Shown piece by piece: positions 1 to 16,595 of a stretch of DNA of 64,000 nucleotides (the first letter of the stretch is position 1; every line of letters begins with the position of its first letter). This DNA comes from Alloacidobacterium dinghuense (GTDB taxonomy: Bacteria > Acidobacteriota > Terriglobia > Terriglobales > Acidobacteriaceae), in contig NZ_CP060394.1 in NCBI RefSeq assembly GCF_014274465.1, positions 2,170,001-2,234,000 of the forward strand. The letters are read 5' to 3'. The translations under genes were made by a program, and so were the position numbers. The notes beneath the pieces are model-generated. The model did no database searches and was not told the DNA's origin. It saw nothing but the letters and a program-made list of their open reading frames with translations.

Positions 1-353
1 CGTCCGCCAGGCATGCCTCCCGTAAATTTCGTCCCATGATGATCGTCGGCATTTTCTCCCGTACAGTGAATCGCTACTTCCACACCTGAACTGCTTGTGG
101 GCGCTGGAATTCCATCCACAGCAGCAACTCCCGCAGGCAAGATCGACTTGATCCGTAGCCGGTTGTCCAGAAATTCAAAAGAAAAGATGACACCTTCGGC
201 CCGCCATTCGAAGGGCGCTACAGTGCGCGCTGGCTCTGGCAGTGGTTTTGTTTCTGCTGAGCCCTCGGCCAGTCCATTCAGTTCGCTGACCACCGGACCG
301 ATGGCCAGAGCACCGGTTTCCTTCAAGAATGTCCTGCGATCGATGTTGGTCAT
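1..353 (-). CDS. Alpha-galactosidase-like glycoside hydrolase, N-terminal part (cut by window edge)
   Basis: An open frame reads leftward from an ATG at 353 and is still open at base 1, so only about 117 N-terminal residues are present. The start DRRTFLKETG is a twin-arginine-like signal, suggesting an exported enzyme. The residues before the edge (VAIHCTGENADDHHG, then FTGGMPGG) resemble the N-terminal beta-domain of acidobacterial proteins annotated as melibiase/alpha-galactosidase (GH36/GH27 type). The catalytic domain lies outside the window. The gene is transcribed away from the receptor gene at 830, so the two share an upstream region. The family call rests on a short segment and could instead be another carbohydrate-active enzyme. 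Confidence 0.5.
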   Translation of the reverse strand, partial: MTNIDRRTFLKETGALAIGPVVSELNGLAEGSAETKPLPEPARTVAPFEWRAEGVIFSFEFLDNRLRIKSILPAGVAAVDGIPAPTSSSGVEVAIHCTGENADDHHGTKFTGGMPGG

Positions 354-829: not shown

Positions 830-3800
830 ATGAATGTACATCGTAGTATTCCACGAAGTTCGTTTCTAGGGACAGGGCTCGCGGCTCTGGGCTTGATCGC
901 CTTTTTACTCTTCAACCTACCTTTTGCGCATGCTGCCGGGCCTACTGGGAAAATTGTAGGAACTGTCATAGACAACACAGGCGCAGCGGTACCCGACGCT
1001 AACGTTTCCATCATCAATGAAGGCACAAACGAAACCAGGACAGCGCGCAGTGGCGACGCTGGTGAATTCAGCTTTCCCGTCTTGCCGGTCGGCAACTACA
1101 CGGTGCGTGTCACTAAGGATGGCTTCCGAACTTTCGAGCAAAAGGGCATCATTCTTCAGGTCGATCAGAACGTTACCGTTCCTGTCTCGTTGCTTGTCGG
1201 CGCTGTCGGTGAGACCGTCGAAGTTAATGGTACCGCCGCGGCTATCAATTTGACGGATGCAACGATCAGCCACGTGGTTGATGAAGAAAGAATCGTCGAT
1301 CTACCTCTCAATGGGCGCGACTCCCTTCAGTTGCAATACATTATGCCCGGTGTGTCCTATGACAATGACAACGTCGCCCATGGCCAGGGACAGCACGAGG
1401 GGGTCGTTGTTAACGGCAACCGACCTGGTTCGAACTACTATCTGCTCGATGGCGTGGACATGACCGATAGCTACCTGTCCGTCGCGCCTACCTTTCCTGC
1501 CCCGGATGCGCTCCAAGAGTTCGACATTCAGACAAGCAACTTTACCGCGCAGTATGGCAGGAGTTCCGGCGGCATTGTTAACGCTGCCACCAAGGCCGGT
1601 ACGAATCAATGGCATGGCGATGCATTTGAGTTTTTCCGCAACGACGTGCTCAACGCACATAACTTTTTCGATGTCCCGGGAGCGAAGAAGCCCTCGTTTA
1701 AGCTTAACCAGTTCGGAGGAACGATTGGGGGTCCAATTCAGAAAAATAAGACCTTCATCTTCGGTTATTACCAGGGCACTCGTCAGCGAAAAGATACAAC
1801 AACAACAACCGGAACGGTTCTTACTGATCTGGAACGCCCCGATCTCAACCCGGCCGGAGATGCCAATTTCAGCGACTGCGGCGGTCCGGGCATACCTTGC
1901 CCAGCGGATCCACGGACCATCACTGTGGCCAATCCATCTGGTTCACCCTTTCCTGGAAACGTAATTCCTGCGAGTCGCATAGACCCTACCGCCGTCAACT
2001 TCATCAAAGCGTTACTGCCACGGCAGAACGCTTCAAGCAACGGCGTTCCCACTTATATCTTCGCGGCTCCCTCGGCTCCCAACCTCGACGATGACAACCA
2101 GAATCAGTTTGCCGTTCGGGTCGATCACAACTTTAATCCAACTAACACTGTCTTCGCCCGCTACTTCTTCAACCAGGATCGGGCGACAGGTCTCGGCTTT
2201 GACAACTTTCCTGGCGGCAAGCACTACAAAAACTTCCGGAATCAGAACGTCGCCATCGATTACACGCACACATTCTCACCGAACCTGCTCAACACGGCGG
2301 TCTTTGGGTTCACGCGACTCTCACACACTCGCGGCCCGTCTCAGAATCTTGGATGGGCGAGCTACGGTGGCCCGGCTTCGCAGGGCACGAAAGGGTTCAC
2401 CGAAATTTACTCAAACGTCAGCGGATCGATCAACGGAGGCGGCGACGGTACTTTTACCCAGAATCGTCAGACATGGCAATACACGGACTACCTGAGTTGG
2501 GTCAACGGTAAGCACATCATGGCATTTGGTGGTGACTACCGCAAAGAATCCGTGAATCGTGTCGAGGATTATTACACCGATCCTAACTTCAGCTTCAATG
2601 GCAGCTTTACCGGAAACTCCCTCTCCGACCTGCTGCTCGGCCTTCCCGATTCTTTTGACTTACAGACCGAGGTAATAAGCCAGCTTCGTCACGGCGCCTT
2701 TGATCTCTACGCGTCCGACAACTATAAAGTCCTTCCCAATGTGACCATCGATGCCGGGTTGCGATGGGAACCGTTCCTTCCGCCAGTCGACCAGTACAAC
2801 GATCAGATTTGCTGGGATCCTACCTTTACCGCAAAGTCGACGTACTATCCCACTGCGCCTCCGGGACTGCTCTTTCCTGGCCCACCGGTCGGATCAAGTT
2901 CGCTTGGCAAAGGTGACAGCGGATGCTCGCGTCAGCTCATCCCTACGCGTTGGAAGAACTTCGCTCCACGGATCGGAATCAACTGGGATCCGACCAAAGC
3001 AGGCAAGACATCTGTCAGTGCCTCCTATGGCCTCTTCTGGGATCAGGCGCGGCTGATTGCCTACAACCGCTTCTCGACCGCCCAGCCCTTTGACGCTAAT
3101 AGCGCCGTCAATAACCCCGGTTCACCGGCGAACAACTATGCACCCAGCCTGACCGGAGACAGCGTCTATACAAACACAGGTCTCGTCAATCCCTACCCGT
3201 TCATCATTCCGCGCGCTCCTGAGCAGAGAGCAGCCTTCAGCCCCAGCTTTGGCGGCTTCTGGCCAACATATTCGACGGAAGATGTACTGGCACCTAACTA
3301 CAACAACGGCTACACCCAGGAATGGAACTTCACAGTGCAGCAGCAGTTCCACGATGACTATACTCTATCTGTCTCGTATATCGGCAATCACGGGACTCAC
3401 CTGTACATCTCCAGGGAGTACAACTACGCCCTTGCATCAAGCTACGTCATCAATCCTGCCCTGACCGCCGAGCAGAATTTGAGCGCCAACCTCTCGGCCC
3501 TGGGCGCTCCGGACGGCACGCGTCGTCGGCTAAGCGATGTCACATGCAATGGCATCCCATGTTTCGGAAACTTCGAAGAGGAAGATCCCGCCGCGTGGTC
3601 AAACTTCAACTCGTTGCAGGTGACGATCAATCGTCGCATGCAGCGGGGATTGACTTTCCTCGCTTCGTACGTCTTCGCCAAGTATCTTGATATTGTTTCC
3701 TACGGCGCCGAAGGTGGCACAGGTCCGCGTGATCCTGAAAACTTCTCCCTGAGCTACGGACCCTCGGACATGAACGTGAAGCATCGCTTCGTGGCGTCCT

Positions 3801-4300
3801 ATATCTGGCAAATCCCTAAGGCTCAAGCATTTCACGGCTTCACGAACGCTCTTCTAAACGGCTGGAGCATTCAAGGCATTGCAACCGTTCAGACCGGTGC
3901 GCCTTATTCCATCAACAGCAATCAGGATCGGGCTGCGCGTGGTATTGGCAATGACACTGCCGACCTGGTTCCCGGCGAATCACCCAACATCTCAAACCGC
4001 TCCCGTCGTGAGTACTTCAATACCGCCGCATTCATCAACGCCGCTCCGAACACCTTCGGGAGCACTGGACGAAACTTCCTCACCGGTCCGGGGCTTGTGA
4101 ATTTCGACACTTCTTTCTTCAAGGAATTTCCGATCAGCGAGCGCTTCGGCAAGATCGAGTTTCGCACTGAGTTCTTCAACACGTTCAACCATCCCAATTT
4201 CTATAACCCGGACAACACCGTTGGAGATGGCACGTTCGGCCAATTTACTTCATCACGCGATCCGCGATTCATTCAGTTCGCTTTAAAGTATTTGTTCTAG
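830..4300 (+). CDS. Oar-like TonB-dependent receptor with carboxypeptidase regulatory-like domain
   Basis: This is an 1156-residue outer membrane protein. Residues 1-36 form a signal peptide ending near FAHAAG. Residues 38-122 are a carboxypeptidase-regulatory-like beta-sandwich (GKIVGTVIDNTGAAVPDANV). A plug-like part follows with VDLPLNGRDSLQL and YLLDGVDMTD, then SSGGIVNAATKAGTN, and a long barrel that ends in a terminal Phe (ALKYLF). This order is typical of the Oar/TonB receptor family that is greatly expanded in Acidobacteriota and thought to import large substrates such as glycans. The start is supported by GGGAGGG just upstream. The substrate is unknown. Its neighbours are a divergent galactosidase-like gene and downstream TPR/CRTAC1 genes, which fits a nutrient-uptake locus, but that is inference. 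Confidence 0.9.
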   Translation: MNVHRSIPRSSFLGTGLAALGLIAFLLFNLPFAHAAGPTGKIVGTVIDNTGAAVPDANVSIINEGTNETRTARSGDAGEFSFPVLPVGNYTVRVTKDGFRTFEQKGIILQVDQNVTVPVSLLVGAVGETVEVNGTAAAINLTDATISHVVDEERIVDLPLNGRDSLQLQYIMPGVSYDNDNVAHGQGQHEGVVVNGNRPGSNYYLLDGVDMTDSYLSVAPTFPAPDALQEFDIQTSNFTAQYGRSSGGIVNAATKAGTNQWHGDAFEFFRNDVLNAHNFFDVPGAKKPSFKLNQFGGTIGGPIQKNKTFIFGYYQGTRQRKDTTTTTGTVLTDLERPDLNPAGDANFSDCGGPGIPCPADPRTITVANPSGSPFPGNVIPASRIDPTAVNFIKALLPRQNASSNGVPTYIFAAPSAPNLDDDNQNQFAVRVDHNFNPTNTVFARYFFNQDRATGLGFDNFPGGKHYKNFRNQNVAIDYTHTFSPNLLNTAVFGFTRLSHTRGPSQNLGWASYGGPASQGTKGFTEIYSNVSGSINGGGDGTFTQNRQTWQYTDYLSWVNGKHIMAFGGDYRKESVNRVEDYYTDPNFSFNGSFTGNSLSDLLLGLPDSFDLQTEVISQLRHGAFDLYASDNYKVLPNVTIDAGLRWEPFLPPVDQYNDQICWDPTFTAKSTYYPTAPPGLLFPGPPVGSSSLGKGDSGCSRQLIPTRWKNFAPRIGINWDPTKAGKTSVSASYGLFWDQARLIAYNRFSTAQPFDANSAVNNPGSPANNYAPSLTGDSVYTNTGLVNPYPFIIPRAPEQRAAFSPSFGGFWPTYSTEDVLAPNYNNGYTQEWNFTVQQQFHDDYTLSVSYIGNHGTHLYISREYNYALASSYVINPALTAEQNLSANLSALGAPDGTRRRLSDVTCNGIPCFGNFEEEDPAAWSNFNSLQVTINRRMQRGLTFLASYVFAKYLDIVSYGAEGGTGPRDPENFSLSYGPSDMNVKHRFVASYIWQIPKAQAFHGFTNALLNGWSIQGIATVQTGAPYSINSNQDRAARGIGNDTADLVPGESPNISNRSRREYFNTAAFINAAPNTFGSTGRNFLTGPGLVNFDTSFFKEFPISERFGKIEFRTEFFNTFNHPNFYNPDNTVGDGTFGQFTSSRDPRFIQFALKYLF

Positions 4301-4311
4301 GTCTTTGCTAC

Positions 4312-4354
4312 AGAGGGGTCTCACAGAGGCCCCTCTCTAGCGTTTCTTTCTTTT
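4312..4354 (+). terminator. Rho-independent terminator after the TonB receptor gene
   Basis: The arms AGAGGGG (4312-4318) and CCCCTCT (4330-4336) form a 7-bp stem with an 11-base loop. A T-rich tract (TTTCTTTCTTTT) follows. It lies 12 bases past the receptor stop, so the receptor is probably a separate transcription unit from the TPR/CRTAC1 genes or is expressed above them. Confidence 0.75.
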
Positions 4355-4432: not shown

Positions 4433-5620
4433 GTGGTAAAGTATACTAAGTTTTGCACCACCTTCTTGCCACGGCTCTTCCTATTCGCCGCGATTCCTCT
4501 TGCCGCGCAAAATAACGACGATGCGATTCAACTGCACCGAAATGCCGCAACCAGCGCGCTCAAGGCCAACGACCTTTCTCGAGCGGAGCGGGAATACCTC
4601 GCCATCCTTTCTATCGATCCCAAGAACGTGGAGGCATCCTCTGCCCTCGGAGTAGCACTGTATGCCTCGGGGAATCTTAGGGAGGCCTCGGCAGCTCTCC
4701 AAAATGCGCTCGGGCTGGATCCTTCCCAACCTCGCATTCAACTCTTTCTCGCCCTTACCCAAGCCGAGCTAGGACAATGCGTTCAAGCTTTGCCAGCACT
4801 TGAGCTTCAATGGAAAGATCAGCCTGACCTTCGCCTGCGCCGCTTGGCCGGACTGTCAGCTCTTGATTGCGAATTGGCGGCGGGGCACCTGACCACCGCC
4901 CTCCAGTTAGCCGAACCCCTAAAGGCACAATACCCTGGTGATCCGGACGTCCTCTATAAGCTCGCCGGCCTGTACTCGCGTCTCTGGAACAAGGCCGCGG
5001 GCGAACTGATCCAAAAACACCCAGAGTCCTATCGCGTCCATCAGCTCGCCGGTGAGGTCTACGAGGCGCAGGGCAAAGGGGACCAGGCAATCCGTGAATA
5101 CACCCTCGCTCTCAAGGAAAACGAGCGAGCAGCGGGCATTCATTTGCGCATAGGACAGATCCTCGTGCAACTGGCCGCCCCTGATTCTGAGACAAAGGCC
5201 CTCGCCGAATTCCAGCGCGAGCTTGCAATCGATCCTGAGTCGGCCGCTGCGGAGTACGCCGTCGGCGAACTCTTCCGCCGCCGTCAGGACTTTCCGCAGG
5301 CAGCGCAACACCTGCAGCGCGCCGTAGCACTGGATTCTTCCCTTGCTGAAGCACACATCGCGTTGGCGCAGATGTTCATGGCGCAACACGATCCCCATCA
5401 GTCCAGCCATGAAGCTGGGATCGCCGTCCAACTAGATCCCCGCAACGCAAAGGCACACTATGCTCTGATGGTCGCTTACCGCGGCGAAGGCAAGATGGAC
5501 GATGCAGGCAAAGAACTCGCTCTTTTTCAGCAGTTACAACAGGAACACGACACCAATTTCGACAACAAACTTAACATCCTGCTCACAGGAAAAGCCGGCA
5601 TGGGACAGACATCGAATTGA
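4433..5620 (+). CDS. Exported tetratricopeptide repeat (TPR) protein
   Basis: This 395-residue protein begins at a GTG codon. Its N-terminus (FLPRLFLFAAIPLAAQ) is a signal peptide. From about residue 25 to 385 it is built of TPR units; recognisable ones include SRAEREYLAILSIDPKN, REASAALQNALGLDPSQ and PQAAQHLQRAVALDSSL. TPR domains are protein-binding scaffolds, and no catalytic domain is visible. It is followed 53 bases later by a CRTAC1 protein, and the TPR-CRTAC1 order recurs immediately downstream, so the two products probably act together in the periplasm or at the cell surface. No ideal Shine-Dalgarno is visible (AGGGT lies about 10 bases upstream), so the start is somewhat uncertain. 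Confidence 0.8.
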   Translation: MVKYTKFCTTFLPRLFLFAAIPLAAQNNDDAIQLHRNAATSALKANDLSRAEREYLAILSIDPKNVEASSALGVALYASGNLREASAALQNALGLDPSQPRIQLFLALTQAELGQCVQALPALELQWKDQPDLRLRRLAGLSALDCELAAGHLTTALQLAEPLKAQYPGDPDVLYKLAGLYSRLWNKAAGELIQKHPESYRVHQLAGEVYEAQGKGDQAIREYTLALKENERAAGIHLRIGQILVQLAAPDSETKALAEFQRELAIDPESAAAEYAVGELFRRRQDFPQAAQHLQRAVALDSSLAEAHIALAQMFMAQHDPHQSSHEAGIAVQLDPRNAKAHYALMVAYRGEGKMDDAGKELALFQQLQQEHDTNFDNKLNILLTGKAGMGQTSN

Positions 5621-5673
5621 ACTACATCCGGTTTTTCTTGATGGTGCCATTGAGGCGGCCGGCATAAAAACTT

Positions 5674-7425
5674 ATGAAATTGGACCGCAGAGCAGCCCTG
5701 AAGCTTCTCGGTTCGGAGCTGGTATTTGCGCGGCTCTGCGAGCCAGTGGCCCGGGCTGCAAAGTTGGCTGGTATACAGTCGCCCGTCTCCACGCGGCCTA
5801 TGCTGGATTACCACCTCACAGACGTAACGCGTCAAGCAGGGGTTGATTTCTTGCACGTTTGCGGCGGAGATACCGGCAAAAAATACATCCTCGAAACGAC
5901 AGGTTCAGGTGCAGCATTTTTTGACTACGACAACGATGGCTGGCTCGATATATTCCTCGTCAACGGTTCCCGGCTCGGAGGCTTTCCCGCGGGTCAAGTA
6001 CCTACCAATCGCCTCTTCCGCAACAATCGCGATGGAACATTCACGGATGTCACGGCCCGCGCAGGCCTCGGTCGCGCTGGCTGGGGACAAGGTGTCTGCA
6101 TCGGCGACTACGACAACGACGGTTACGAGGACCTTTTCGTGACCTACTGGGGCGAAGACGTCCTCTACCACAACAATGGGGACGGAACCTTCACTGACGT
6201 CACTCACCGCGCCGGTGTTGCAGGCGCCCCTTTTCGCTGGAGCACCGGAAGTGCCTTTGTTGACTATGATCGCGATGGTCATCTCGATCTCTTCGTCACC
6301 CATTACGTCAAATTTGACCTGCGGACCGCACTCGATCCCGGGAGTAACCCTTACTGCGTCTATCGCGGTCTGGCGGTCAACTGCGGACCCAAAGGCCTAA
6401 TCGTTGAAAAGAATTCCCTCTATCACAACAACGGCGATGGGACATTCGCTGACGTCACTGCAAAAGCTGGAATCGACCGCGCCATCGGCGGCTTCGGACT
6501 GGGTGTGCTTACAGGCGACTTCGACAACGACGGCTGGCCGGACATCTACGTCTCCTGCGATACGACGCCCAGCCTTCTTTTTCTGAACAATCACGACGGA
6601 ACTTTTCGGGAAGAAGGCGCCTTACGCGGGGTCGCCTATGGAGAAACTGGTCAGGAGCAGGCTGGCATGGGTGTCGCTGCTGCAGATATCGATGGCAAAG
6701 GGTGTCTCGACATCCTGAAGATGAATTTTTCCGATGAGTTTCCCAACCTTTACATCAATTCCGGCAAAGCAATCTTCAATGATCTCGGTCAGAGTGCCGG
6801 AGTCCATCGCTATGGAAATCTCGTGGGATGGGGTTGCGGCTTCTTCGACCCTGACAACGACGGCCACCCCGATATCTTCTATGTCAACGGCCACGTCTAT
6901 CCGGAGTTGAATCGCATCCAAGCCAACGTCACCTATCGTCAACCGCGCGTTCTCTATCGCAATCTCGGCAACGGAAAGTTTGACGATGTATCCGCCGAAT
7001 TGGGTTCGGTTGTCACCTTTCCATCCACGGGGCGCGGCTGCGTCTTCGGGGACTTCAACAATGATGGCGCCGTCGATATTCTTATCAACAATCAGAACTC
7101 GCCTCCTTCCCTTTTGCGTTGCGAAACGACCAATCATAATCGTTGGATTAACCTGAAGCTTGTGGGGGTTAAGTCCAACCGTAGCGCTATCGGCGCGCGC
7201 GTCGTCTGTGAGGCGGGTGGTCTTCGACAGATCGATGAGGTCAGAAGTGGCGGCAGCTATATCTCACAGAATGACCTGCGTATCCATTTCGGCCTGGGTG
7301 AAGCGCACGTCGTGGATCTGCTACAGGTCAGCTGGCCCAGTGGAACCGTCGATATCTGGCGCAAGCTCCCTACCAACAGATTCCTTAAACTGCGCGAGGG
7401 TGGAGAGATGAAGTTACTAATCTAA
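5674..7425 (+). CDS. CRTAC1 family protein (FG-GAP/VCBS propeller plus ASPIC/UnbV domain), copy 1
   Basis: This 583-residue protein has a twin-arginine-like N-terminus (DRRAALKLLG). At least seven calcium-binding-type repeats follow, including DYDNDGWLDIFLVNG, DYDNDGYEDLFVTYW, DYDRDGHLDLFV, DFDNDGWPDIYV, DPDNDGHPDIFYVNG and DFNNDGAVDILINN. The Dx[DN]xDG loops are those of FG-GAP/VCBS beta-propeller blades. The last 90 residues (IGARVVCEAGGLRQIDEVRSG, then FGLG and VSWPSG) form an ASPIC/UnbV domain. The family is abundant in Acidobacteriota and Planctomycetota and its biochemical role is not established; extracellular ligand binding is likely. It is clearly paralogous to the gene at 9253. Confidence 0.9.
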   Translation: MKLDRRAALKLLGSELVFARLCEPVARAAKLAGIQSPVSTRPMLDYHLTDVTRQAGVDFLHVCGGDTGKKYILETTGSGAAFFDYDNDGWLDIFLVNGSRLGGFPAGQVPTNRLFRNNRDGTFTDVTARAGLGRAGWGQGVCIGDYDNDGYEDLFVTYWGEDVLYHNNGDGTFTDVTHRAGVAGAPFRWSTGSAFVDYDRDGHLDLFVTHYVKFDLRTALDPGSNPYCVYRGLAVNCGPKGLIVEKNSLYHNNGDGTFADVTAKAGIDRAIGGFGLGVLTGDFDNDGWPDIYVSCDTTPSLLFLNNHDGTFREEGALRGVAYGETGQEQAGMGVAAADIDGKGCLDILKMNFSDEFPNLYINSGKAIFNDLGQSAGVHRYGNLVGWGCGFFDPDNDGHPDIFYVNGHVYPELNRIQANVTYRQPRVLYRNLGNGKFDDVSAELGSVVTFPSTGRGCVFGDFNNDGAVDILINNQNSPPSLLRCETTNHNRWINLKLVGVKSNRSAIGARVVCEAGGLRQIDEVRSGGSYISQNDLRIHFGLGEAHVVDLLQVSWPSGTVDIWRKLPTNRFLKLREGGEMKLLI

Positions 7426-7482
7426 AAGCCCTTGGCTTAACTGCCGCTGGAAATAGCTTGGCATGCCAGCACGGATTCGAAA

Positions 7483-9246
7483 ATGCGCTCCGGACATCAT
7501 CGGAAGACGACAAAGATTGTAAACAGAATACGAAGCCTCCTTCTGTTTGTTGTGGCCTGTCTCGCCCTTTGTCTGTCTACTCTTCATGCGCAGGTTGAAA
7601 CTCCTGAGTCAACGCATGTTAACCAGGGAATCGCGTTGCTGCGGGCCCGCGACTACTCCGGGGCCCTCAAAGAATTCGAAACCGCCAGCACGCTCAATCC
7701 GAAATCCGCTCAGACATATGCCTGGTTAGGCATTACCCAAAACCAGCTCAGAGAGTTTGCCCAGGCGGCTAAGTCCTTCCAGTCCGCTCTCCGGCTCGAC
7801 CCTTCCCTGCTATCGGCTCGCTACAATTACGCTCACACCCTGGTCGAGCTGGGTGATTTGCAGGGCGCTATTCGCGAACTCACCACCGTTGTGAAGACCA
7901 ACCCGTCTGTCCTGGAGGTGCAGTACAACCTTGCTGTTCTGCTTTCTCAGACACGACGTTATTCCGATGCTGGTGAGCATTTCGAGATCGTGCACGAAAA
8001 ACAACCTTCTGACGCGGCGGCTACTGCTCGTCTTGCAGATTGCTACTTCCACACCTCGCGGCAGGACCGGGCGACGCAATTGATTGCAAATCTCCAGCCA
8101 GCCAGCCTCGATCCCACTACGGCTGCCCTACTCGCTTCTGACCTCATCGAGAGTGGCTCCTACTCACAAGCCGTATCTATCCTCACTGCCAGCGATACCT
8201 TCTCTGCCTCGCTTCCCGGCAAAGTCTTACTTGCCAAAGCGTATCTTGGCAACAATCAGCCCGACGCCGCAATCCAGGTCTTGCAGACAGGCGCGGACAC
8301 ATCCACACAAGTCTCCTATCTTCTCGGCCTCGCTTACCTCTCTTCACATCAATCCGAACATGCTTTGAGCGCGTTTCGGGCTGCTGCCGCCACCGATCCG
8401 AAAGACGCGCTCGCCCACTATCACCTTGGCGTCCTGCTGCTGCAAAATACCTCGCCAGAAATTCAAAAGCAGGGAGCGGCGGAACTTCAAACCTCCATCC
8501 AACTCATGCCTGGGCAATCTGCATCGTATGAGGCTCTCGCCAAATGGCAGCTGCAAACCAATCAGGCTGGCGCCGCGCTCGCGCTCCTCCAGGATGCCGC
8601 CCGTTACGCGAAGCTGACCGCGCAGACCACTTTGCTGCTGGGTCTCGCCCAAGCCTCCGTGCACGGGACGGACGCGGCCCGTCCTATGATCGAGCAGGCG
8701 ATTGCCCTCGATCCTCATATAGCCCTCGCCCACAATGTGCTCGGCTTCTGTTACTTCCGCGCCGGAGACTATCGTCGCGCCAGCGACTCCTATGCCGAAG
8801 CCCTGCGTTTAGAACCTGCCAACGGCCTCTTCGCATATGACGTCGCTCTTGCCCTTGAAAAACAAAACAAGATTGCGGAAGCCATTCCCTTCGCGGAAAA
8901 GGCTGCCGCCGCAACACCGCCGCCGCCATCCGCTCACTACTTACTCGGCAAGCTATACGCTAAAGCAGGCAAGTTAGTCGATGCTATTCATGAGTTAGAA
9001 ATAGCCATCCAGTTGAATCCATCCATGCCTTATCCTTACTATCTTCTGGCCCGTACCTACATGCAAAGTGGAGACGCGCAAGAAGCCCAGGAATGGAATA
9101 CCAGGTTCAAGGACCTGAAGCGGGCTCAGGACAAACCGGGCACTCTTGGACCGCCATCTTCTGAGCCAGTCGATGGCCTCGCTCCTTCGCTGAACATCAC
9201 AGGGCCGCACGACGCCGCGCTGCCCGCGCCATCGAAGGCTCAATAG
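7483..9246 (+). CDS. Large exported TPR protein
   Basis: This is a 587-residue protein with an N-terminal signal (SLLLFVVACLALCLSTLHAQ). Residues 40-550 are nearly continuous TPR helices; clear units include SGALKEFETASTLNPKS, AQAAKSFQSALRLDPSL, RRASDSYAEALRLEPAN and VDAIHELEIAIQLNPSM. The last 40 residues are Pro/Ala-rich and probably disordered. It is longer than the first TPR protein (587 against 395 residues) but holds the same position before a CRTAC1 gene. Only 6 bases separate its stop from the next start, so the pair is almost certainly cotranscribed and translationally coupled. No strong Shine-Dalgarno precedes the ATG at 7483. Confidence 0.83.
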   Translation: MRSGHHRKTTKIVNRIRSLLLFVVACLALCLSTLHAQVETPESTHVNQGIALLRARDYSGALKEFETASTLNPKSAQTYAWLGITQNQLREFAQAAKSFQSALRLDPSLLSARYNYAHTLVELGDLQGAIRELTTVVKTNPSVLEVQYNLAVLLSQTRRYSDAGEHFEIVHEKQPSDAAATARLADCYFHTSRQDRATQLIANLQPASLDPTTAALLASDLIESGSYSQAVSILTASDTFSASLPGKVLLAKAYLGNNQPDAAIQVLQTGADTSTQVSYLLGLAYLSSHQSEHALSAFRAAAATDPKDALAHYHLGVLLLQNTSPEIQKQGAAELQTSIQLMPGQSASYEALAKWQLQTNQAGAALALLQDAARYAKLTAQTTLLLGLAQASVHGTDAARPMIEQAIALDPHIALAHNVLGFCYFRAGDYRRASDSYAEALRLEPANGLFAYDVALALEKQNKIAEAIPFAEKAAAATPPPPSAHYLLGKLYAKAGKLVDAIHELEIAIQLNPSMPYPYYLLARTYMQSGDAQEAQEWNTRFKDLKRAQDKPGTLGPPSSEPVDGLAPSLNITGPHDAALPAPSKAQ

Positions 9247-9252
9247 TCGCCT

Positions 9253-11052
9253 ATGACCCCGCTCATTTCCCGCCGCAGCCTTCTTCGCTTGCTTCTTGGC
9301 TCCTGTGCAGCAATCCGACCTGCGAGGGCTTCAAGCCTGCTGCAAATGTCTTCCGGCAATCTCGGCCCCGGCACCGAGCCCAAGATAGGCCCGGCAGTAG
9401 CCGATTATCGGGATATCGCCGCGCTCGCCGGCTTGACAGCCAAGACTGTGATCGGCGGTGAAAGCACCAAGAAGTTCATCCTCGAAACCACCGGCGGTGG
9501 TGTCGCGCTCTTCGATTACGACAACGACGGTTGGCTCGACATTTTCCTGGTTAACGGCTCCCGTCTTGAGGGCTTTCCGAAAGGGCAAGAACCCACAAGC
9601 CACCTCTATCGCAACAATCGTGATGGCACATTTACTGATGTAACCCTTGCCGCCGGTCTTACTCATGTTGGTTGGGGCCAGGGAGTCTGCGTCGGCGACT
9701 ATGACGGAGACGGGAACCTCGATCTTTTCGTGACTTACTATGGGAAAAATGTCCTTTACCGCAATCGCGGGAACGGCACCTTTATCGACGTTACTCGCGA
9801 AGCTGGCCTCCTGACTGAATCCCCGATGTACAGCACCGGCGCGGCTTTCCTCGACTACGATCGCGACGGAAAGCTTGATCTCTTTGTCGCCCACTATACG
9901 GATTACGCAGAAGCTACGAGCCATTCTCCAGGTGATCAGGCGGGTTGCAAATGGAAAGGACAACCCGTGATGTGCGGCCCTCGCGGACTGAAGGGCAGTG
10001 TCAATATTCTCTATCGCAACAATGGCGACGGCAGATTTACTGATGTAACCCTAAAGGCTGGAATCGGAGCTGAGACACACTATGGTTTCACACCGCTGGT
10101 GCTTGACTACGATAATGACGGGTGGCCCGACATCTATGTCGCCAATGACTCCACCGCCTCGCAGCTTTATCACAACAACCGCAACGGCACATTCACGGAG
10201 CTTGGTAGTCTCGCCGGTGTCGCCTACAACGAAGACGGGCGCGAGCAGAGCGGCATGGGTGCAAGCGCCGGAGACTATGACTGCGATGGCTCTCTCGATA
10301 TCGTTAAGACGAACTTCGAAGAAGACACCAGCTCTCTCTATCACAATCACCGCAACGGTACCTTCGATGATGTGACCTTTGCTTCAGGCATCGGAGTGAA
10401 TACACGATATGTCGGCTGGGGCACGGGCTTCATTGATTTCGACAACGATGGCTGGCCAGATATCTTCATCGCCAATGGCCATGTCTATCCCGAAGTTGAC
10501 CGCGACCAGAATGGCTCGTCGTATCGCCAACGCAAGATCCTCTATCGTAATAAGCGCGATGGTTCCTTCGAGGATGTTTCCCTGCGCGCTGGACCTGGCA
10601 TTCTCCTCAAGCGCAGTGCGCGCGGCGCTGCCTTCGGTGATCTCTTCAATACTGGCCAGATGGACATTGTCATCAACAACTCTGGTGACATCCCCACGAT
10701 CTTGCGAAACTTCGCTCTTACCTCCAACCGTTCACTGTCTTTGCAATTGGTCGCTCGCGGCTCAAATCTTTTCGCGATCGGTGCTCATGTCACGGTTTCT
10801 GTGGGAGACCACCGCATGATTGACGAAGTCCGCAGTGGCGGCAGTTATCTGTCGCAGAACGAGTTGCGCCTTCACTTTGGGTTGGGCAACGCGACTCGCA
10901 CTGGCAAGGTGGAAGTCCGCTGGCCTGATGGCTCATCCGATACCTACGCTGATCTCCCTGCGAACCATCTGGTCATTCTTCGCGAGGGAAATCCAAAGCC
11001 CGAGTTCTCCGCCTTTCACCCCGTCCCGCCAATGTATAAGAAATCCGAATAA
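9253..11052 (+). CDS. CRTAC1 family protein (FG-GAP/VCBS propeller plus ASPIC/UnbV domain), copy 2
   Basis: This 599-residue protein is a close paralogue of the one at 5674: both share FILETTG or a near match, DYDNDGWLDIFLVNGSRL, NNRDGTFTDVT and GWGQGVC in the same order. Its N-terminus (ISRRSLLRLLLGSCAA) is a twin-arginine-like signal. Seven or so D-x-D-x-D-G repeats follow, then a C-terminal ASPIC/UnbV domain (FAIGAHVTVSVGDHRMIDEV, LHFGLG, VRWPDGSSDTY). It ends the TPR/CRTAC1 array. The paralogues differ mainly in the inter-blade loops and the C-terminal tail, which suggests duplication followed by divergence in ligand specificity (inference). Confidence 0.9.
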   Translation: MTPLISRRSLLRLLLGSCAAIRPARASSLLQMSSGNLGPGTEPKIGPAVADYRDIAALAGLTAKTVIGGESTKKFILETTGGGVALFDYDNDGWLDIFLVNGSRLEGFPKGQEPTSHLYRNNRDGTFTDVTLAAGLTHVGWGQGVCVGDYDGDGNLDLFVTYYGKNVLYRNRGNGTFIDVTREAGLLTESPMYSTGAAFLDYDRDGKLDLFVAHYTDYAEATSHSPGDQAGCKWKGQPVMCGPRGLKGSVNILYRNNGDGRFTDVTLKAGIGAETHYGFTPLVLDYDNDGWPDIYVANDSTASQLYHNNRNGTFTELGSLAGVAYNEDGREQSGMGASAGDYDCDGSLDIVKTNFEEDTSSLYHNHRNGTFDDVTFASGIGVNTRYVGWGTGFIDFDNDGWPDIFIANGHVYPEVDRDQNGSSYRQRKILYRNKRDGSFEDVSLRAGPGILLKRSARGAAFGDLFNTGQMDIVINNSGDIPTILRNFALTSNRSLSLQLVARGSNLFAIGAHVTVSVGDHRMIDEVRSGGSYLSQNELRLHFGLGNATRTGKVEVRWPDGSSDTYADLPANHLVILREGNPKPEFSAFHPVPPMYKKSE

Positions 11053-11959: not shown

Positions 11960-12103
11960 CTAGCTGTAGGCTGTGTTCGAGGCTGTCATCGATGTCATTC
12001 GATGCAGGCTGTCATACTGGAGGGTGCCATTGCCGTCATAGAGCAGCGTGACTACTCCGCCGTTCATCGAAACCAGATGGTTCTCTGAGTCGTAAAGCGA
12101 GGC
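11960..12103 (-). pseudogene. RHS/YD-repeat protein fragment fused in frame to the recombinase
   Basis: The last 47 codons of the leftward recombinase frame do not belong to a recombinase. They read YDSENHLVSMNGGVVTLLYD and then YDSLHRMTSMTA, which are typical RHS/YD-repeat sequences (usually written YDxxNRLxSx). Two non-adjacent repeat pieces are joined, so the source gene suffered an internal deletion before or during fusion. Only about 144 bases remain, with no RHS core or toxin domain. The fragment presumably marks a former RHS locus into which the recombinase element inserted. Confidence 0.6.
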
Positions 12104-13437
12104 TCTTGCGGCTCGTCCACTCGCCTCAACGTTCACCCTCGGGGAACTGTATCGCCTACTATTTCTGCTTCCGCACTTTGCGGCGGTAGAGATTGATCGA
12201 GAGTAGCCTTCAACCTTGTCATCCAATTCATCCATGCGCAAAGCCGCCAGATATTTCTCCGTAGTCGAAAGCTTCTTGTGACCGAGTAAAGTCTGGAGCG
12301 TTTTTATATCCACGCCTGAGCGGAGCAAGTTTGTCGCGAAGCTGTCCCTCCAGCGGTGCAAATACCAGCGTTCACAGTTTGCCGTCGTGGCGCACTTCCC
12401 TTTTGTGCTCTTGCAATGACCACAATTGAGTTCAGCCCGGAAAGCAACTTCTTTGCATAGCTCCAGATGATGTGCGTCCGGCTGATCGCCGCCGTAGCTA
12501 GGCCGCTTCGGATGTGGCCGCGTTGGAAACACCAGACGGGTCTTGCTGCTCTTCTGGCGCTGCTTGAGTGATTCGATCAGTGAGGAGGGAACCTTGACGC
12601 TACGTACCTCATGGTTCTTAGGCTTAAAGCCATAGATAACGTCAGGCTTTACCCACAAAACGTTGCGCCGGAAGTCCACACGATCCCAGGTCAGCGTATT
12701 GACTTCACGGAAGCGGAAGCCGGTCGCAAGATAGACCTGAAAGAGCAACTTCTCCTCAGCAGCGCAGACGTCAAAAAACGCCTTGATCTCATCCTGTGAG
12801 CAGACATCGACATCGTTGTCGACTGTCTTCGGCCAGTCCCCCTTTTGTAGCTTGATGGTCGCTCCGGCATTGCGGAGCGCCACGAGCAGAACCATCGCCC
12901 TGCGATTGATCGTTTTCTGATTGGCGTCTTCTTCTCTGCCAGCGCCGAGCAGTTTGAGGATGTCGTTCCGTGTGACGTCCTGGACGTGCATCCGGTCGAG
13001 ATGACCTTTGCACCACTCAAGATCGCGCGCGTAGGCGCGATGCGTCTCCGGTTCTTTGGTGGCTTTCGTCTGCGTGAGGAAGACGGCGACGGCAGTCTCG
13101 ACTAGCGTACGCGCCCTCGGCTCCGCTGGCCGATCCTCAAGATCGGCAGGTAGCGCTTCGCCGTTTAGCTCCGCTTGCTTTGCCCGGAGTGCATCAACCG
13201 CCGCCCTGCCCTCGTTGCCGACGCAACTTGCTTTCGCCTGCCGTCTTGTCTGTAGTCCAGGTAGAAGCTGCCGATGTCACACTTCACCGGCTTACCGTCG
13301 AGCACGATCAGATCGGTACGCCAGCGGTCGCCGCCTCTGGTTTGCTCACGGAAAACTGAAGCATATCGCCAGCGGTCATTGATTCTCAGGTATCGCTTGA
13401 GCGATACTCTGATGGAGTGCTTCAATATCTTGTTCAC
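12104..13437 (-). pseudogene. Tyrosine recombinase/integrase, frameshifted near 13221
   Basis: The C-terminal catalytic domain is complete to the eye: TGFRFRE holds the first Arg, HRWR the H-x-x-R, LLGHKKLSTTEKYL the second His and the nucleophilic Tyr. The N-terminal arm-binding part (LDGKPVKCDIGSFYLDYRQDG) lies in a different frame, beginning at a GTG at 13437. The two frames join if one base is restored at about 13221-13222, giving KQVA followed by GNEGRAAVDALRAKQ. The length and this N-terminus match a site-specific integrase type common in Acidobacteriota. The gene is therefore broken, unless the shift is a sequencing error. Its C-terminus runs on into an RHS remnant, which also argues for decay. 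Confidence 0.75.
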
Positions 13438-13579: not shown

Positions 13580-13654
13580 GCGGGAGTAGTTCAGTGGTAG
13601 AACGTCAGCTTCCCAAGCTGAATGTCGCCGGTTCGATCCCGGTCTCCCGCTCCA
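13580..13654 (+). tRNA. tRNA-Gly (anticodon CCC)
   Basis: A full cloverleaf is present. The acceptor GCGGGAG pairs with CTCCCGC, the anticodon stem TCAGC pairs with GCTGA around the loop TTCCCAA (anticodon CCC), and the T arm GCCGG-TTCGATC-CCGGT is intact. The CCA end is encoded at 13652-13654. It lies between a broken recombinase gene upstream and a convergent phosphodiesterase gene downstream. Confidence 0.95.
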
Positions 13655-13692: not shown

Positions 13693-14457
13693 TTAGAAGT
13701 TGTACTCCCTCTCACACTCGCCAATCTCCAGATTGGGAAGCTGAAGCGCCTGCAATTCCCGTATTACCTGCTCGCGATAGCGAACTTTAATGTGCACTGC
13801 TACCACCTTGATTCCAGAAGGCATCTTGGCCACTTCGCGGCCGAACATATCAACCGTTAGGTGAAGGGAAGCTTCAGCCAGCCCAGTCAGATGGTTGGGA
13901 AAGCATGCTTCAAGAAAGACCGCCCGTAGACCTGGAGTTTGATGAGCGACTTCCCACAGTCTCTCCGTCGGCCCCGAATCGCCCCCGAAAATGACTGCGC
14001 TTTTACCGTCACCGACGACATACCCGAAGGTTGGAACCACGTGATGGACCGGAACTGGTACTACCTGAAGGCCATCGGCCTCCACAGGCACCTCGGCTTC
14101 AATCGGGAAGGCACGCAGAAACGGCGGCATGTTTCTTGAGAGCGCGATGAAGTCCGGCCACATCACGTCATTGAAGATGTGCTTCTGCACTCCATCAAGA
14201 GTTGCCACGCTTCCATAGATGCGCGCGCAATTTCCGGCAGGCGTCCAGGCATTCTCCACAAATATCGGCAGGCTGGCCGTATGGTCGGTGTGGGAATGGG
14301 TGAGAAAAACATGGCGAATCGCTTCCTGTTCCTGAGGAGTGCCGTAGAATCCCAGGCAGCCTACATCGATTGCCACTGTTCCGTTGACGAGATAGCTGCT
14401 TACGTATTGGCGCCGGGCGGGATCTGGCACCGACGATCCTAGAAGCTTGATTTTCAT
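13693..14457 (-). CDS. Metallo-beta-lactamase-fold cyclic nucleotide phosphodiesterase (class II-like)
   Basis: This 254-residue protein carries the metal-binding motif HSHTDH at residues 54-59 and a GGDSGPTERLWE segment that matches class II 3',5'-cyclic-nucleotide phosphodiesterases (CpdP/yeast PDE1 type). The fold is shared with ribonuclease Z, which is the main alternative. Context favours the phosphodiesterase reading, because its start overlaps by one base (TGATG) the stop of an adenylate cyclase gene. The two would be translated together and respectively degrade and make cAMP. No signal peptide is visible, so it is likely cytoplasmic. It converges on tRNA-Gly 38 bases away. Confidence 0.8.
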   Translation of the reverse strand: MKIKLLGSSVPDPARRQYVSSYLVNGTVAIDVGCLGFYGTPQEQEAIRHVFLTHSHTDHTASLPIFVENAWTPAGNCARIYGSVATLDGVQKHIFNDVMWPDFIALSRNMPPFLRAFPIEAEVPVEADGLQVVPVPVHHVVPTFGYVVGDGKSAVIFGGDSGPTERLWEVAHQTPGLRAVFLEACFPNHLTGLAEASLHLTVDMFGREVAKMPSGIKVVAVHIKVRYREQVIRELQALQLPNLEIGECEREYNF

Positions 14458-16595
14458 CAGACCACCTCGGCGGTGCGCATTTGACCATGCAATATCCAGG
14501 TTTCAATCTCGCCTTTGCCCTTCACCTGGACGATGCCGCGGCTTTCGAACTGATAAGCGTCCTTCAATCGCTCGTACACGCTGCGGGTGACTTGAATTTG
14601 TCCCGGCACGCCTGTCGATTCCATGCGGCTGGCAAGGTTCACAGTATCGCCCCACAAGTCGTAAATAAACTTTGTAGTGCCGATGACGCCGGCTACCACC
14701 GGGCCAGAGTTCAGTCCGATCCGCAACCGCAGGTCCAGCCCTTTCTCCTTGCCATAGCTCCCTGTCGCATCAAGCATGCGGAGCGCCATCTGAGCCATCT
14801 TGTCAGCATGATCGGGACACGGCCGCGGCAAGCCGCAGACGGCCATATAGCAATCTCCGATGGTTTTAATTTTTTCGATGCCAAGTTCGCTCGCCTCGTG
14901 ATCGAACAGGCTGAACAATCCATTGAGCATCTCCACAATTTCCGTCGCAGATGTCTTGCTCGACAAAGCGGTGAAACCAACAATATCGCCGAACAATACC
15001 GTCACGTCCGCGAAGCTATCGGCAATGTCTTGCTCGCCTTCTTTCAGGCGCGCCGCAATTTCTCCGGGAAGAATGTTAAGGAGCAGCGCTTCATTCTCGC
15101 GATTCTTCTGCTCGATGAGCTCCGTCTTCTCGCGAATGCTCTTTGTCATCGCATTGAATGTGTCGGAGAGTGTTCCAAGCTCGTCCTTGTATTTCCATTC
15201 GACCTGCGCCGTCAGATCTCCAGCAGCGACTTTCCCTGCGGCAGCCACCAGAGCATTCACCGGACGCAGGATTTGGCGCGTCATGAGCCACGCCGCCAAC
15301 ACCGTCAAAAACAACAAACCCACGCCCCACCATGTGAATAGCCGCCGCATTTCGCTTACTGGCTTGAGCGCTTCCTCCAGATACATCCGGGCGGCGATTG
15401 CCCAATGGAGGCCCTCGATATGTAAGGGCATGTATGAGACCAGGGAGGCTGTTCCCTGCCCTCTCGCATTTCGTTCGATAACCGTTCCTTCTTTGCCGTC
15501 GAGCGCCGCGGTCACTGAAGGAAACTTCGCCAGGATCTGCAGAATCGTCGTCTTGTAGGTACGAATCCTGTCCAGCTTTTCCTCAGAAACTCCATTCGCC
15601 TTCAGCCTCGCAAGAAATCCGTCCGGATTCTCGAGATATTGGCGAGCATTTGTACGGAGTAAATAATCGTCCCCAATAATGACTGATTCGCCCGTCGTCC
15701 CCAAGCCGTCCCGCACCCATCCGCGATTCCCTGTCATAACTTCGTCGATGGCCGCCGTCGAAAGCTGGAGCGCTAATACGCCTACGTGCTCCTGGCCATC
15801 CCAGATAGGGCTTGCGATATATTGTGTCGGCTCACCCATCGAAGCCTCGTAGGGCTCGAAATCGGTGAGAAAGACATCGTCCACGTTGTTGGTTTCGGTG
15901 CATAGCTTGAACACTTTTGCCAAGTTGCTGTCCCGGTACGGACCATCTTTGAGGCTTGTGGCGAAATCTCGGTCCTTGCTCACCTCATAGACAATGCGCC
16001 CGGTGTCATAGTCGATCAGATAGAGATCGTAGTAGCCGAATTTATTGATAAGACTTTGGAACGTGGCGTGGTATTTCTCATGTACCCTGCTGTAATCGCT
16101 ATTGTCTCCAGCATCAGCAAGCTGGTCGCGGCGGCCTGCAGGGTTCGGGTTTTTCGCGATATAGAGGTATTGCAGCTCAAGCGCTGCAGGAGTAAACGGC
16201 AGGTAATCCTCAACCCGGGGCCTTGCCATCTTGAGCCTCTGCATGTCCGGATAGAAGTGGTTCTGATAGTCTTCGCGGACCGCATTCAGAGCATCTGCCG
16301 GAATCGGAGCATCATCCATTTTCCGGTATGCTGCCCGGAATTCCCGCATCGCCTCGATGAACATCCTGTCATCACTGAGAGTTTCGGTGTGGTTATGAAT
16401 CGTCCGATAGTATGCCTGGATTTGAAATGCTTTGGAACGAGTGACACCGGTGAGCTGGTTCATCACATCGTTCTTCAAAGCGCTGAGGTATTTGATATAG
16501 GCAATCGTTCCCGTCACAGCGAACGTCATCACGCCCAACAACAGAAGAAGCGACAGCAGCTTGTAACGAATGCTCCAGTGCCCAAACCTCCTCAT
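14457..16595 (-). CDS. Membrane-bound class III adenylate cyclase with periplasmic sensor and HAMP domain
   Basis: The protein has 712 residues. TM1 spans about 12-34, a long extracytoplasmic sensor (probably Cache-like) about 35-410, TM2 about 415-437, then a HAMP domain (ILRPVNALVAAAGKVAAGD), a short coiled coil and a class III cyclase domain. Catalytic residues are intact: metal-binding Asp in VLFGDIVGFT and TIGDCYMA, Lys in EKIKTIGD and Asp in YDLWGDTVN for adenine recognition, and the Asn/Arg pair in VNLASRME. The Lys/Asp pair predicts cAMP rather than cGMP. GGAGG sits just before the ATG. It begins 18 bases after a glycosidase gene and overlaps a phosphodiesterase gene. Confidence 0.9.
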   Translation of the reverse strand: MRRFGHWSIRYKLLSLLLLLGVMTFAVTGTIAYIKYLSALKNDVMNQLTGVTRSKAFQIQAYYRTIHNHTETLSDDRMFIEAMREFRAAYRKMDDAPIPADALNAVREDYQNHFYPDMQRLKMARPRVEDYLPFTPAALELQYLYIAKNPNPAGRRDQLADAGDNSDYSRVHEKYHATFQSLINKFGYYDLYLIDYDTGRIVYEVSKDRDFATSLKDGPYRDSNLAKVFKLCTETNNVDDVFLTDFEPYEASMGEPTQYIASPIWDGQEHVGVLALQLSTAAIDEVMTGNRGWVRDGLGTTGESVIIGDDYLLRTNARQYLENPDGFLARLKANGVSEEKLDRIRTYKTTILQILAKFPSVTAALDGKEGTVIERNARGQGTASLVSYMPLHIEGLHWAIAARMYLEEALKPVSEMRRLFTWWGVGLLFLTVLAAWLMTRQILRPVNALVAAAGKVAAGDLTAQVEWKYKDELGTLSDTFNAMTKSIREKTELIEQKNRENEALLLNILPGEIAARLKEGEQDIADSFADVTVLFGDIVGFTALSSKTSATEIVEMLNGLFSLFDHEASELGIEKIKTIGDCYMAVCGLPRPCPDHADKMAQMALRMLDATGSYGKEKGLDLRLRIGLNSGPVVAGVIGTTKFIYDLWGDTVNLASRMESTGVPGQIQVTRSVYERLKDAYQFESRGIVQVKGKGEIETWILHGQMRTAEVV

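Follow-up and report, generated by a model that had tools for sequence, protein, structure and literature searches.

The core of this locus is a pair of adjacent genes, one for a TPR protein and one for a CRTAC1-family protein; the pair recurs across genomes, is tightly spaced, and changes its companions. In the window (the whole stretch of 64,000 nucleotides that was analysed) two such pairs follow an Oar-type TonB-dependent receptor. The linkage of Oar to the pair is facultative yet real.

The arrangement given in a preliminary description of this DNA is confirmed: five ORFs on one strand encode the receptor and the two pairs, with domains recognized by Pfam. The span then given to the module, 4433-11052, covers the pairs and leaves outside the receptor that the description itself named. 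This receptor matches PF25183 (6.5e-216), PF13620 (2.4e-20) and PF07715 (1.6e-5); with a PF25183 barrel, a Plug, an N-terminal CarboxypepD_reg domain and a signal peptide judged by eye, it belongs to the Oar-type group, and it has no sequence match among PDB chains at 0.001. Its six Pfam families (E 0.01 or better) do not include the STN domain of signal-transducing TonB receptors; the surface location and the sensing role that had been envisaged are hypothetical. All five proteins carry export signals, as had been noticed, when scored by eye and simple rules rather than by a trained predictor: Sec-like in the receptor and both TPR proteins, twin-arginine-like in both CRTAC1s, weakly so in copy 1 whose h-region holds charged residues. 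Gene calling and the detection of TPR, Tat signals and terminators likewise followed our own rules. The divergent galactosidase-like gene is indeed a GH36 melibiase, complete as L033:13146-15353 (735 aa); this neighbour perhaps forms one sugar locus with the receptor block. At gathering scores, tRNA was the sole Rfam match.

Features of the locus (window coordinates)
Feature	Coordinates	Strand	Length (aa)	Characteristics
GH36 melibiase-type alpha-galactosidase, N-terminus only in window	3..353	-		PF02065 8.1e-35, PF16875 2.5e-6; twin-arginine-like signal
Oar-type TonB-dependent outer-membrane receptor	830..4300	+	1156	CarboxypepD_reg + Plug + barrel; Sec-like signal
Strong hairpin then T-rich run, intrinsic-terminator-like	4307..4354	+		receptor-TPR 1 gap
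TPR protein 1	4433..5620	+	395	GTG start; Sec-like signal; CxxCH = 0
CRTAC1 copy 1	5674..7425	+	583	FG-GAP_3; UnbV_ASPIC residues 505-571; twin-arginine-like N-terminus; six Dx[DN]xDG
TPR protein 2	7483..9246	+	587	Sec-like signal; CxxCH = 0
CRTAC1 copy 2	9253..11052	+	599	UnbV_ASPIC residues 508-573; twin-arginine-like signal; six Dx[DN]xDG

Both CRTAC1 copies have the organization of the CRTAC1/ASPIC-UnbV family: an FG-GAP/VCBS propeller, with Dx[DN]xDG putative metal-binding motifs in its blades, then the UnbV_ASPIC domain, which we take to be transthyretin-like. Shuffled sequences yield a mean of less than 0.1 such motifs, with a maximum of 2. The copies are identical at 296 of 559 positions (53%), and the blocks previously reported as common, DYDNDGWLDIFLVNGSRL and GWGQGVC, are found in each. 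As for the duplication, the congener holds a separate orthologue for each copy (support 100/100 each), one clade for the four CRTAC1s of the two species is neither favoured nor rejected (AU p 0.17), and the best BLAST piece between the two TPR proteins reaches 27% over 114 aa. These comparisons indicate that the CRTAC1 copies are old paralogues, and do not support a recent tandem duplication of the pair. The term "duplicated module" thus holds loosely.

The preliminary description would have been abandoned if TPR and CRTAC1 genes were rarely adjacent elsewhere; their adjacency is far above background in several phyla. In 80 named loci, a TPR gene adjoins CRTAC1 on the same strand in 39 of 87 clusters, against 3 of 115 distant genes. 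Our TPR detection was incomplete (9 of 104 neighbours labelled "other" carry TPR by Pfam, the check having taken 104 of 132 neighbours and left out one above 1300 aa and 27 at random), and loci L114-L141 did not enter the analysis. TPR neighbours are present in Poribacteria (4/6), Gemmatimonadota (3/5) and Latescibacterota (2/5, plus one fusion), for a background of 0/83; in the own genome, a TPR partner or fusion accompanies 8 of 14 CRTAC1 clusters, compared with 2 of 283 background genes. Over all sets eleven proteins fuse CRTAC1 to TPR, the median gap from TPR to CRTAC1 is -1 bp (39 junctions), and the divergences of the two partners are correlated (Mantel 0.15, p 0.014, 65 pairs). We are highly confident that TPR and CRTAC1 form a real functional pair. 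Found beside different partners in several phyla, these helpers resemble a component that can be used again in new settings more than an apparatus of constant composition.

The association with Oar is of another kind. In the own genome an Oar lies within three genes of 9 of 14 CRTAC1 clusters, against 27 of 283 background genes, a background that may be undercounted since 65 of 87 candidate Oars were scored (14 in each of the other genomes in one survey). The congener keeps the five-gene block in the same order between different flanks, with identities of 36-66%. On the other hand, among the matches listed, CRTAC1-rich genomes of Poribacteria, Gemmatimonadota and Latescibacterota have few or zero Oars, and CRTAC1 is absent from 10 of the 20 Oar-rich genomes in a 60-genome sample of the phylum; an obligatory three-part system is ruled out by these matches. 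Neither do the receptor and the propeller show significant co-evolution over 33 pairs, where L029, with one CRTAC1 and three flanking Oars, counts as three: Mantel r is 0.10 (p 0.14) for identity and 0.03 (p 0.31) for normalised bits. A weak signal may exist inside the own genome (0.33, p 0.085, 10 pairs; 0.20, p 0.096, 16 pairs when G044 is added). The conserved set of receptor, scaffold and propeller proposed earlier thus stands as a linkage above chance here and a block kept in the congener; as an obligatory system it is not supported, given the genomes with one part and not the other, a hairpin that usually lies between receptor and pair, and divergences that do not correlate significantly. 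That Oar is functionally linked to TPR-CRTAC1 in this lineage seems to us quite probable.

Such a linkage might reflect shared regulation only, Oar and the pair being expressed under the same conditions without physical contact. The receptors are freely swapped, CRTAC1s 54-66% identical being accompanied by Oars 19-29% identical, and Oar stands upstream or downstream of the pair on either strand. A terminator-like hairpin separates Oar from the pair at 11 of 13 junctions; in the window, the whole gap between the receptor and TPR 1 has an MFE of -46.1 kcal/mol (z -3.6), and its hairpin is not listed by a simple terminator scan. Moreover, across the 60 genomes Oar-rich and CRTAC1-bearing status do not co-occur significantly (p 0.26; moving two doubtful genomes to the other class gives 0.06). 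These features would all suit shared regulation, but the gene order is not random: 16 of 20 co-directional three-part blocks, plus the window, read Oar-TPR-CRTAC1, some of them being orthologues. Furthermore, the six Oar pairs at least 40% identical all have CRTAC1s at least 57% identical, so that orthologous blocks appear stable. We regard shared regulation without contact as a rather unlikely explanation on the whole.

Alternatively, the release of CRTAC1 could depend on Oar. In Myxococcus xanthus, Oar is needed for the secretion of PopC and interacts with it (PMC6434023), and Tat-like signals are more frequent in Oar-linked CRTAC1s (21/45) than in unlinked ones (19/93; own, rel and named sets, p 0.002), although this count comes from a regex rule and is confounded with lineage (0/25 in another set). 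Besides, Tat proteins are often just periplasmic, and PopC, which lacks a signal peptide, most likely passes in an unfolded state, according to PMC6434023. Since Oars are few or absent, among the matches listed, where other phyla are rich in CRTAC1, CRTAC1 export cannot generally require Oar, and we consider this export route improbable.

Some companions of CRTAC1 point in another direction, being TPR proteins that are themselves multihaem cytochromes. At least four CxxCH motifs occur in 13 of 72 CRTAC1-adjacent TPR proteins, compared with 15 of 1654 other genes and none of 44 TPR genes that do not adjoin CRTAC1; the four checked among these 13 all have cytochrome c554 domains. Fusions of the type CRTAC1-redoxin-TPR also occur, and hydrazine-synthase-like subunit genes are flanked by a CRTAC1-family gene in some taxa (PMC12758564). 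The pair could thus ancestrally partner multihaem cytochromes, or be an extracytoplasmic metalloprotein assembly platform, the Oar loci being a secondary use. This redox origin is unlikely in our opinion: 59 of the 72 adjacent TPR proteins are without haem motifs, as are all 19 canonical Oar-block TPR proteins and the proteins of the window pairs, so that the multihaem group is represented in other loci and not here. CRTAC1s about 72% identical sit in Oar-TPR-TPR-CRTAC1 and in cytochrome-TPR-CRTAC1 loci. Because the partner can be a cytochrome, any explanation based on one context, that of the preliminary description included, is too narrow.

We come back to the pair itself as the unit that selection would act upon: an exported TPR solenoid with an exported beta-propeller that carries putative metal-binding motifs and ends in an ASPIC domain. 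The TPR protein would be a docking adaptor that keeps the propeller next to a companion encoded in the locus, on its periplasmic (or surface) face. In the window the companion would be the Oar-type receptor, with alpha-galactosidases adjoining; the propeller would capture or hand on galactosides set free by the enzymes for import through the receptor, and the hairpin after the receptor gene might let the receptor be made in excess over the pair or independently of it. This is the explanation we prefer, and as a whole chain, sugar hand-over included, it is proposed tentatively. With slightly more reserve still, TPR-CRTAC1 might be a portable extracytoplasmic coupling cassette, whose TPR element, either a protein of its own or joined to the propeller, to a multihaem cytochrome or to a redoxin, docks the propeller into various envelope machines: TonB sugar receptors here, cytochromes elsewhere. 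If true, it would give the bacterial CRTAC1/ASPIC family its first common role; the open literature searched yielded no functional study of a bacterial ASPIC-type protein. The linkage can be tested at two points, a direct interaction between TPR and CRTAC1 and the predicted alpha-galactoside substrate of the window locus.

The predicted structure of CRTAC1 copy 1 (pLDDT 94.4) resembles murine CRTAC1 (9etn) over its whole length, propeller and C-terminal domain (Z 42.1, 456 residues, 2.3 A, 25% identity), and an animal CRTAC1 is also matched by sequence (E 1.1e-18). After CRTAC1, Foldseek ranks fungal lectins that bind GlcNAc (E 1e-10 to 2e-9), whereas VIA-align ranks LGI1 propellers second, not lectins. 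The calcium-blade lectins of Psathyrella velutina and Agrocybe aegerita likewise have a propeller whose calcium blades bear Dx[DN]xDG motifs (PMC3123361), but their TM-score is 0.34-0.36 on model length. A lectin-like fold in this model does not show that the propeller binds sugar. Similarly, the model of a natural fusion (L070:9989-12751; pTM 0.69, low-confidence linker, unpaired alignment) does not establish a fixed packing of TPR on the propeller.

Concerning the substrate, GH36, GH36 and GH27 genes lie upstream of the window locus, and GH97 and GH27 flank its congener orthologue. As both species have alpha-galactosidase-type enzymes beside the locus, though not the same ones, an alpha-galactoside is our best guess from gene content. 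The glycan substrate suggested earlier is favoured by these flanks, but an excess of sugar enzymes over Oars without CRTAC1 was not demonstrated: they stand beside 6 of 19 canonical Oar blocks, amounting to two orthologous groups, and 79 neighbours of 20 control Oars, hand-picked far from CRTAC1, include six GH-type families with one member each. Several Oar-TPR-CRTAC1 loci have non-sugar neighbours such as nitrite/sulphite reductase, COX15 and LMF1.

In Bacteroidota the TPR-CRTAC1 pair may join SusCD. The SusCD loci resemble ours by the carboxypeptidase-regulatory-like domain at the N-terminus of the TonB receptor, by adjoining exported accessory proteins, and by the glycoside hydrolases, with LacI-type genes also near some Oar-TPR-CRTAC1 loci. 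They differ in that the accessories here are TPR proteins and CRTAC1 propellers, mostly non-lipoprotein by simple rules, and that sugar genes are not universal; SusD/RagB (PF07980) has 0 matches in the own genome, the Bacteroides control being positive. The Oar-PopC system likewise combines an Oar-type receptor with what may be a partner protein that is exported, but this partner is a protease, and the passages of PMC6434023 consulted mention no TPR or CRTAC1 partner. As to animal CRTAC1, which in humans is measured as a plasma protein, the bacterial copy differs by its Tat-like signal and by the TPR gene alongside. ASPIC-type matches number 20 in the own genome, and reach at least 51 elsewhere.

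The five genes of the window locus (see the table) lie in a genome of one contig of 6.27 Mb, of which the window is positions 2170001-2234000; the closest named relatives would place it in Acidobacteriota. The two CRTAC1 proteins are 53% identical over 559 positions and each carries six Dx[DN]xDG motifs, for a shuffled mean below 0.1; the two TPR proteins bear hardly any likeness to each other. Of 77 aligned relatives, 74 have both cysteines 228 and 237 of CRTAC1 copy 1 and 3 have neither; since they are kept or lost together, they might form a disulphide, which fits an exported protein. The model of this copy (mean pLDDT 94.4, pTM 0.91) has murine CRTAC1 as clear best structural match (Z 42.1), then LGI1 (Z 31.3); with Foldseek the next group is that of fungal GlcNAc-binding lectins (E 1e-10 to 2e-9). 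With a profile of the 77 relatives CRTAC1 was matched at 1.2e-39, and there were weak matches to integrin alpha chains.

Features of the window and of the loci compared with it
Feature	Position	Strand or remark
Oar-type receptor	window 830-4300	co-directional with the other four genes
TPR protein 1	window 4433-5620	co-directional
CRTAC1 copy 1	window 5674-7425	co-directional
TPR protein 2	window 7483-9246	co-directional
CRTAC1 copy 2	window 9253-11052	co-directional
Tyrosine-recombinase ORF	window 11960-12991	(-)
tRNA-Gly(CCC)	window 13580-13654	
MBL-fold protein	window 13693-14457	(-)
Class III adenylate/guanylate cyclase with HAMP	window 14457-16595	(-)
CRTAC1-ASPIC-AhpC/TSA(redoxin)-TPR fusion, ~1280-1300 aa	L022:14020-17853	(-)
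CRTAC1-ASPIC-AhpC/TSA(redoxin)-TPR fusion, ~1280-1300 aa	L036:1811-5704	(+)
NQR2/RnfD-like membrane protein	L025:12428-13282	(-)
CxxCH-bearing TPR neighbours of CRTAC1	L038, L039, L056, L064, L067, L073, L078, L079, L084, L090, L097, L035, L230	4-7 motifs, 693-969 aa

The preliminary description of duplicated TPR and CRTAC1 genes behind an Oar-type receptor was right for the five genes as read, and neighbourhood counts against background put the arrangement beyond chance. The genome has 20 matches to ASPIC, the domain of the CRTAC1 family, and at least 65 Oars. Twelve further loci gave 13 clusters (neighbourhood groups holding CRTAC1), 14 with the window: 8 of the 14 have a TPR partner or fusion, 9 an Oar within 3 genes and 8 both, for 2, 27 and 1 respectively of 283 ordinary genes in 20 background stretches (17 random, 3 hand-placed), a comparison somewhat tilted towards clusters by the counting unit, cluster or gene. 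An Oar lies within 8 kb of 10 of 13 clusters, for a mean of 2.1 expected when positions are rotated round the chromosome (p 0.0008; p 0.0018 at 10 kb), the Oar positions being a lower bound. A TPR gene adjoins 7 of the 9 Oars in own-genome CRTAC1 loci with both neighbours visible; among 20 CRTAC1-free Oars chosen as controls it adjoins 1. TPR families were absent among the top 25 families of 108 neighbours of control Oars, and of 104 neighbours of Oar-CRTAC1 clusters that had been left uncalled, 9 have TPRs by Pfam. The TPR signal at CRTAC1 thus goes beyond that at Oars in general, which is not demonstrated for sugar genes.

In the 80 best named loci, picked by likeness to the query and mostly from Acidobacteriota by title, 39 of 87 clusters (42 including fusions) have a TPR gene next to them on the same strand and 26 an Oar within 3 genes, for 3 and 2 of 115 background genes at least 5 genes away. 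Twenty stretches from three genomes of the same phylum (G018, G044, G053) gave a TPR or fusion in 10 of 23 clusters and an Oar in 5. Over all sets eleven CRTAC1-TPR fusions were counted; in the model of a natural one (L070, pTM 0.69), which also has a TPR solenoid, the propeller is confident and the linker of low confidence, with no fixed TPR-propeller packing seen.

The TPR-CRTAC1 adjacency recurs in Poribacteria (4 of 6 clusters), Gemmatimonadota (3 of 5) and Latescibacterota (2 of 5, plus one fusion); it is found in 1 of 5 clusters of another Acidobacteriota genome, G067, and in 0 of 2 of the Planctomycetes. That of the receptor does not: an Oar lies within 3 genes of 0 of these 23 clusters (background 0/83). 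Among the matches listed, the eight genomes searched have 7 to 51 ASPIC matches each, whereas PF25183, the Oar-type receptor family, has 22 matches in G067 and 0 to 5 in the others, with a single strong protein match in G062 and another in G064. In the window's phylum at least 23 of 60 genomes have ASPIC: by the matches listed, 10 of 20 Oar-rich genomes (at least 9 PF25183 matches) and 13 of 40 others (p 0.26), or 12 of 22 and 11 of 38 (p 0.06) when G018 and G001, left out of that class with 27 and 9 fragmentary matches at a laxer limit, are counted as Oar-rich. Neither Oar nor CRTAC1 requires the other. With Oar optional and companions varying, the conserved receptor, scaffold and propeller set proposed as a surface uptake or sensing system is not borne out as a fixed system; a TPR-CRTAC1 pair that is portable and changes its companions agrees better with the data. 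A search of an open-access library gave nothing on CRTAC1 together with both bacteria and Acidobacteria, or with a TonB-dependent receptor, and nothing joining Acidobacteria, TonB-dependent, tetratricopeptide and FG-GAP. Excerpts of three papers report ASPIC/UnbV and TonB-receptor paralogue families in Solibacter, not linked to each other there (PMC3174227), multiple copies of ASPIC domains in Poribacteria (PMC3909097) and a CRTAC1-family gene adjoining hydrazine-synthase-like genes (PMC12758564).

One congener, G124, has the five genes in unchanged order (identities: Oar 62%, TPR1 46%, CRTAC1-1 66%, TPR2 36%, CRTAC1-2 65%), and in the tree each CRTAC1 copy pairs with its own G124 orthologue (support 100/100); the flanks, by the genes called there, share nothing but two distant GH27s. 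Two other congeners, 59% and 77% complete, have no such tandem among the matches listed, and over 60 genomes of the family the listed matches of CRTAC1-1 reach 59% identity for the top-scoring and 60% for a partial one. Oar and CRTAC1 divergence do not correlate significantly over 33 pairs (own genome alone: r 0.33, p 0.085). CRTAC1 pairs at least 54% identical have Oars mostly just 19-29% identical, and Oar pairs at least 40% identical have CRTAC1s at least 57% identical in 6 of 6. Orthologous blocks are thus stable, and paralogous blocks exchange receptors. In co-directional blocks with CRTAC1 the Oar is first in 19 loci and last in 7; 16 of 20 blocks holding all three genes, some orthologues of each other, have the order Oar-TPR-CRTAC1, the window being additional. 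Close relatives of the window CRTAC1s often form convergent pairs (L034, L232, L233, L234, L235, L236, L240, L241), whose members fall in different clades where both are in the tree (L034, L232, L233, L236, L240).

Over 39 junctions the median gap from TPR to CRTAC1 is -1 bp. Of 13 Oar to TPR gaps of 30-300 bp, 11, that of the window among them, contain a hairpin with a T-run, for a mean of 1.0 and a maximum of 4 when shuffled; without the three lacking a same-strand CRTAC1 after the TPR (L046, L102, L148) it is 9 of 10. Such structures occur in 24 of 129 co-directional background gaps of own-genome sets, 14 of 144 of other sets, and at 3 of 18 TPR/CRTAC1 junctions. They are partly a general property of Oar genes, because they also occur in 14 of 26 gaps between Oar and other genes and at 8 of 20 control Oar 3' ends. 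The whole window gap folds at -46.1 kcal/mol (z -3.6); a generic terminator scan of the region gave 16, close to the shuffled mean of 13.8, and its list lacks the window's Oar to TPR hairpin. These Oar 3' structures are strong and differ in sequence (L142, L148, L028, L144, L055, L102, window).

Upstream of the window locus stand a GH36 (N-terminus at 3-353), a GH27 and a second GH36; downstream of the G124 block, a GH97 and a GH27. Identity between the two GH27s is just 28%. For the adjoining GH36 the best match in G124, at 29%, is not a close one; the incomplete congener G125 has one at 57%. As differing alpha-galactosidase-type enzymes adjoin orthologous receptors, the gene content would point to an alpha-galactoside as substrate; the GH97 family includes alpha-glucosidases too. 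Other blocks have other neighbours: GH30, GH5, GH3, GH2, a rhamnogalacturonase-like protein and LacI-type regulators in the orthologous set L026, L144, L055 and L231, a COX15-type gene at L024/L228, a sulphite-reductase-type gene at L223, LMF1 and MFS genes at L142. Among 19 canonical blocks (co-directional Oar-TPR-CRTAC1; 18 loci and the window), 6, forming two orthologous groups, have a GH-type gene within 2 genes, the neighbours being partly typed. Control Oars also have GH neighbours: for 79 neighbours within 2 genes of 20 Oars, the 25 families listed include six GH-type ones with one member each, counted by family and not by locus. A link of sugar genes to CRTAC1 over and above that to Oars is thus not demonstrated. 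As to the mode of action that we infer for the TPR-CRTAC1 pair, sugar hand-over has no more than a modest lead in likelihood over each of three others: shared regulation, a redox role and export.

That TPR partners are of two kinds, haem-bearing or not, is the main point beyond the reach of the preliminary description. At least 4 CxxCH motifs are found in 13 of the 72 TPR proteins encoded next to CRTAC1 on the same strand; among other genes the count is 15 of 1654, and among TPR genes that do not adjoin CRTAC1 it is 0 of 44. Pfam gave a cytochrome c554 domain with TPRs in 4 of 4 checked (L038, L064, L090, L230). A redox module is possible. In canonical Oar blocks none of the 19 TPR proteins bears such motifs, for 12 of the 43 that have no Oar nearby (p 0.012); in an intermediate setting 1 of 10 does. 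CRTAC1s about 72% identical to each other are found with either kind of partner (L024 versus L038, L039, L056). In L225, L229 and L148, homologues of the L022 redoxin fusion have as neighbours a CRTAC1 gene and an Oar gene that diverges. In the own genome the NQR2/RnfD-like gene is flanked by two CRTAC1 genes.

Just downstream of the window CRTAC1 genes, the C-terminus of the tyrosine-recombinase ORF continues into an RHS-repeat-like fragment, near the tRNA gene and DNA in which no genes are clear; this region is perhaps the remnant of an integrated element. The MBL-fold gene overlaps the cyclase gene by one base, and its product matches a cyclic-nucleotide phosphodiesterase model far under the cut-off; the two could possibly make and break a cyclic nucleotide.
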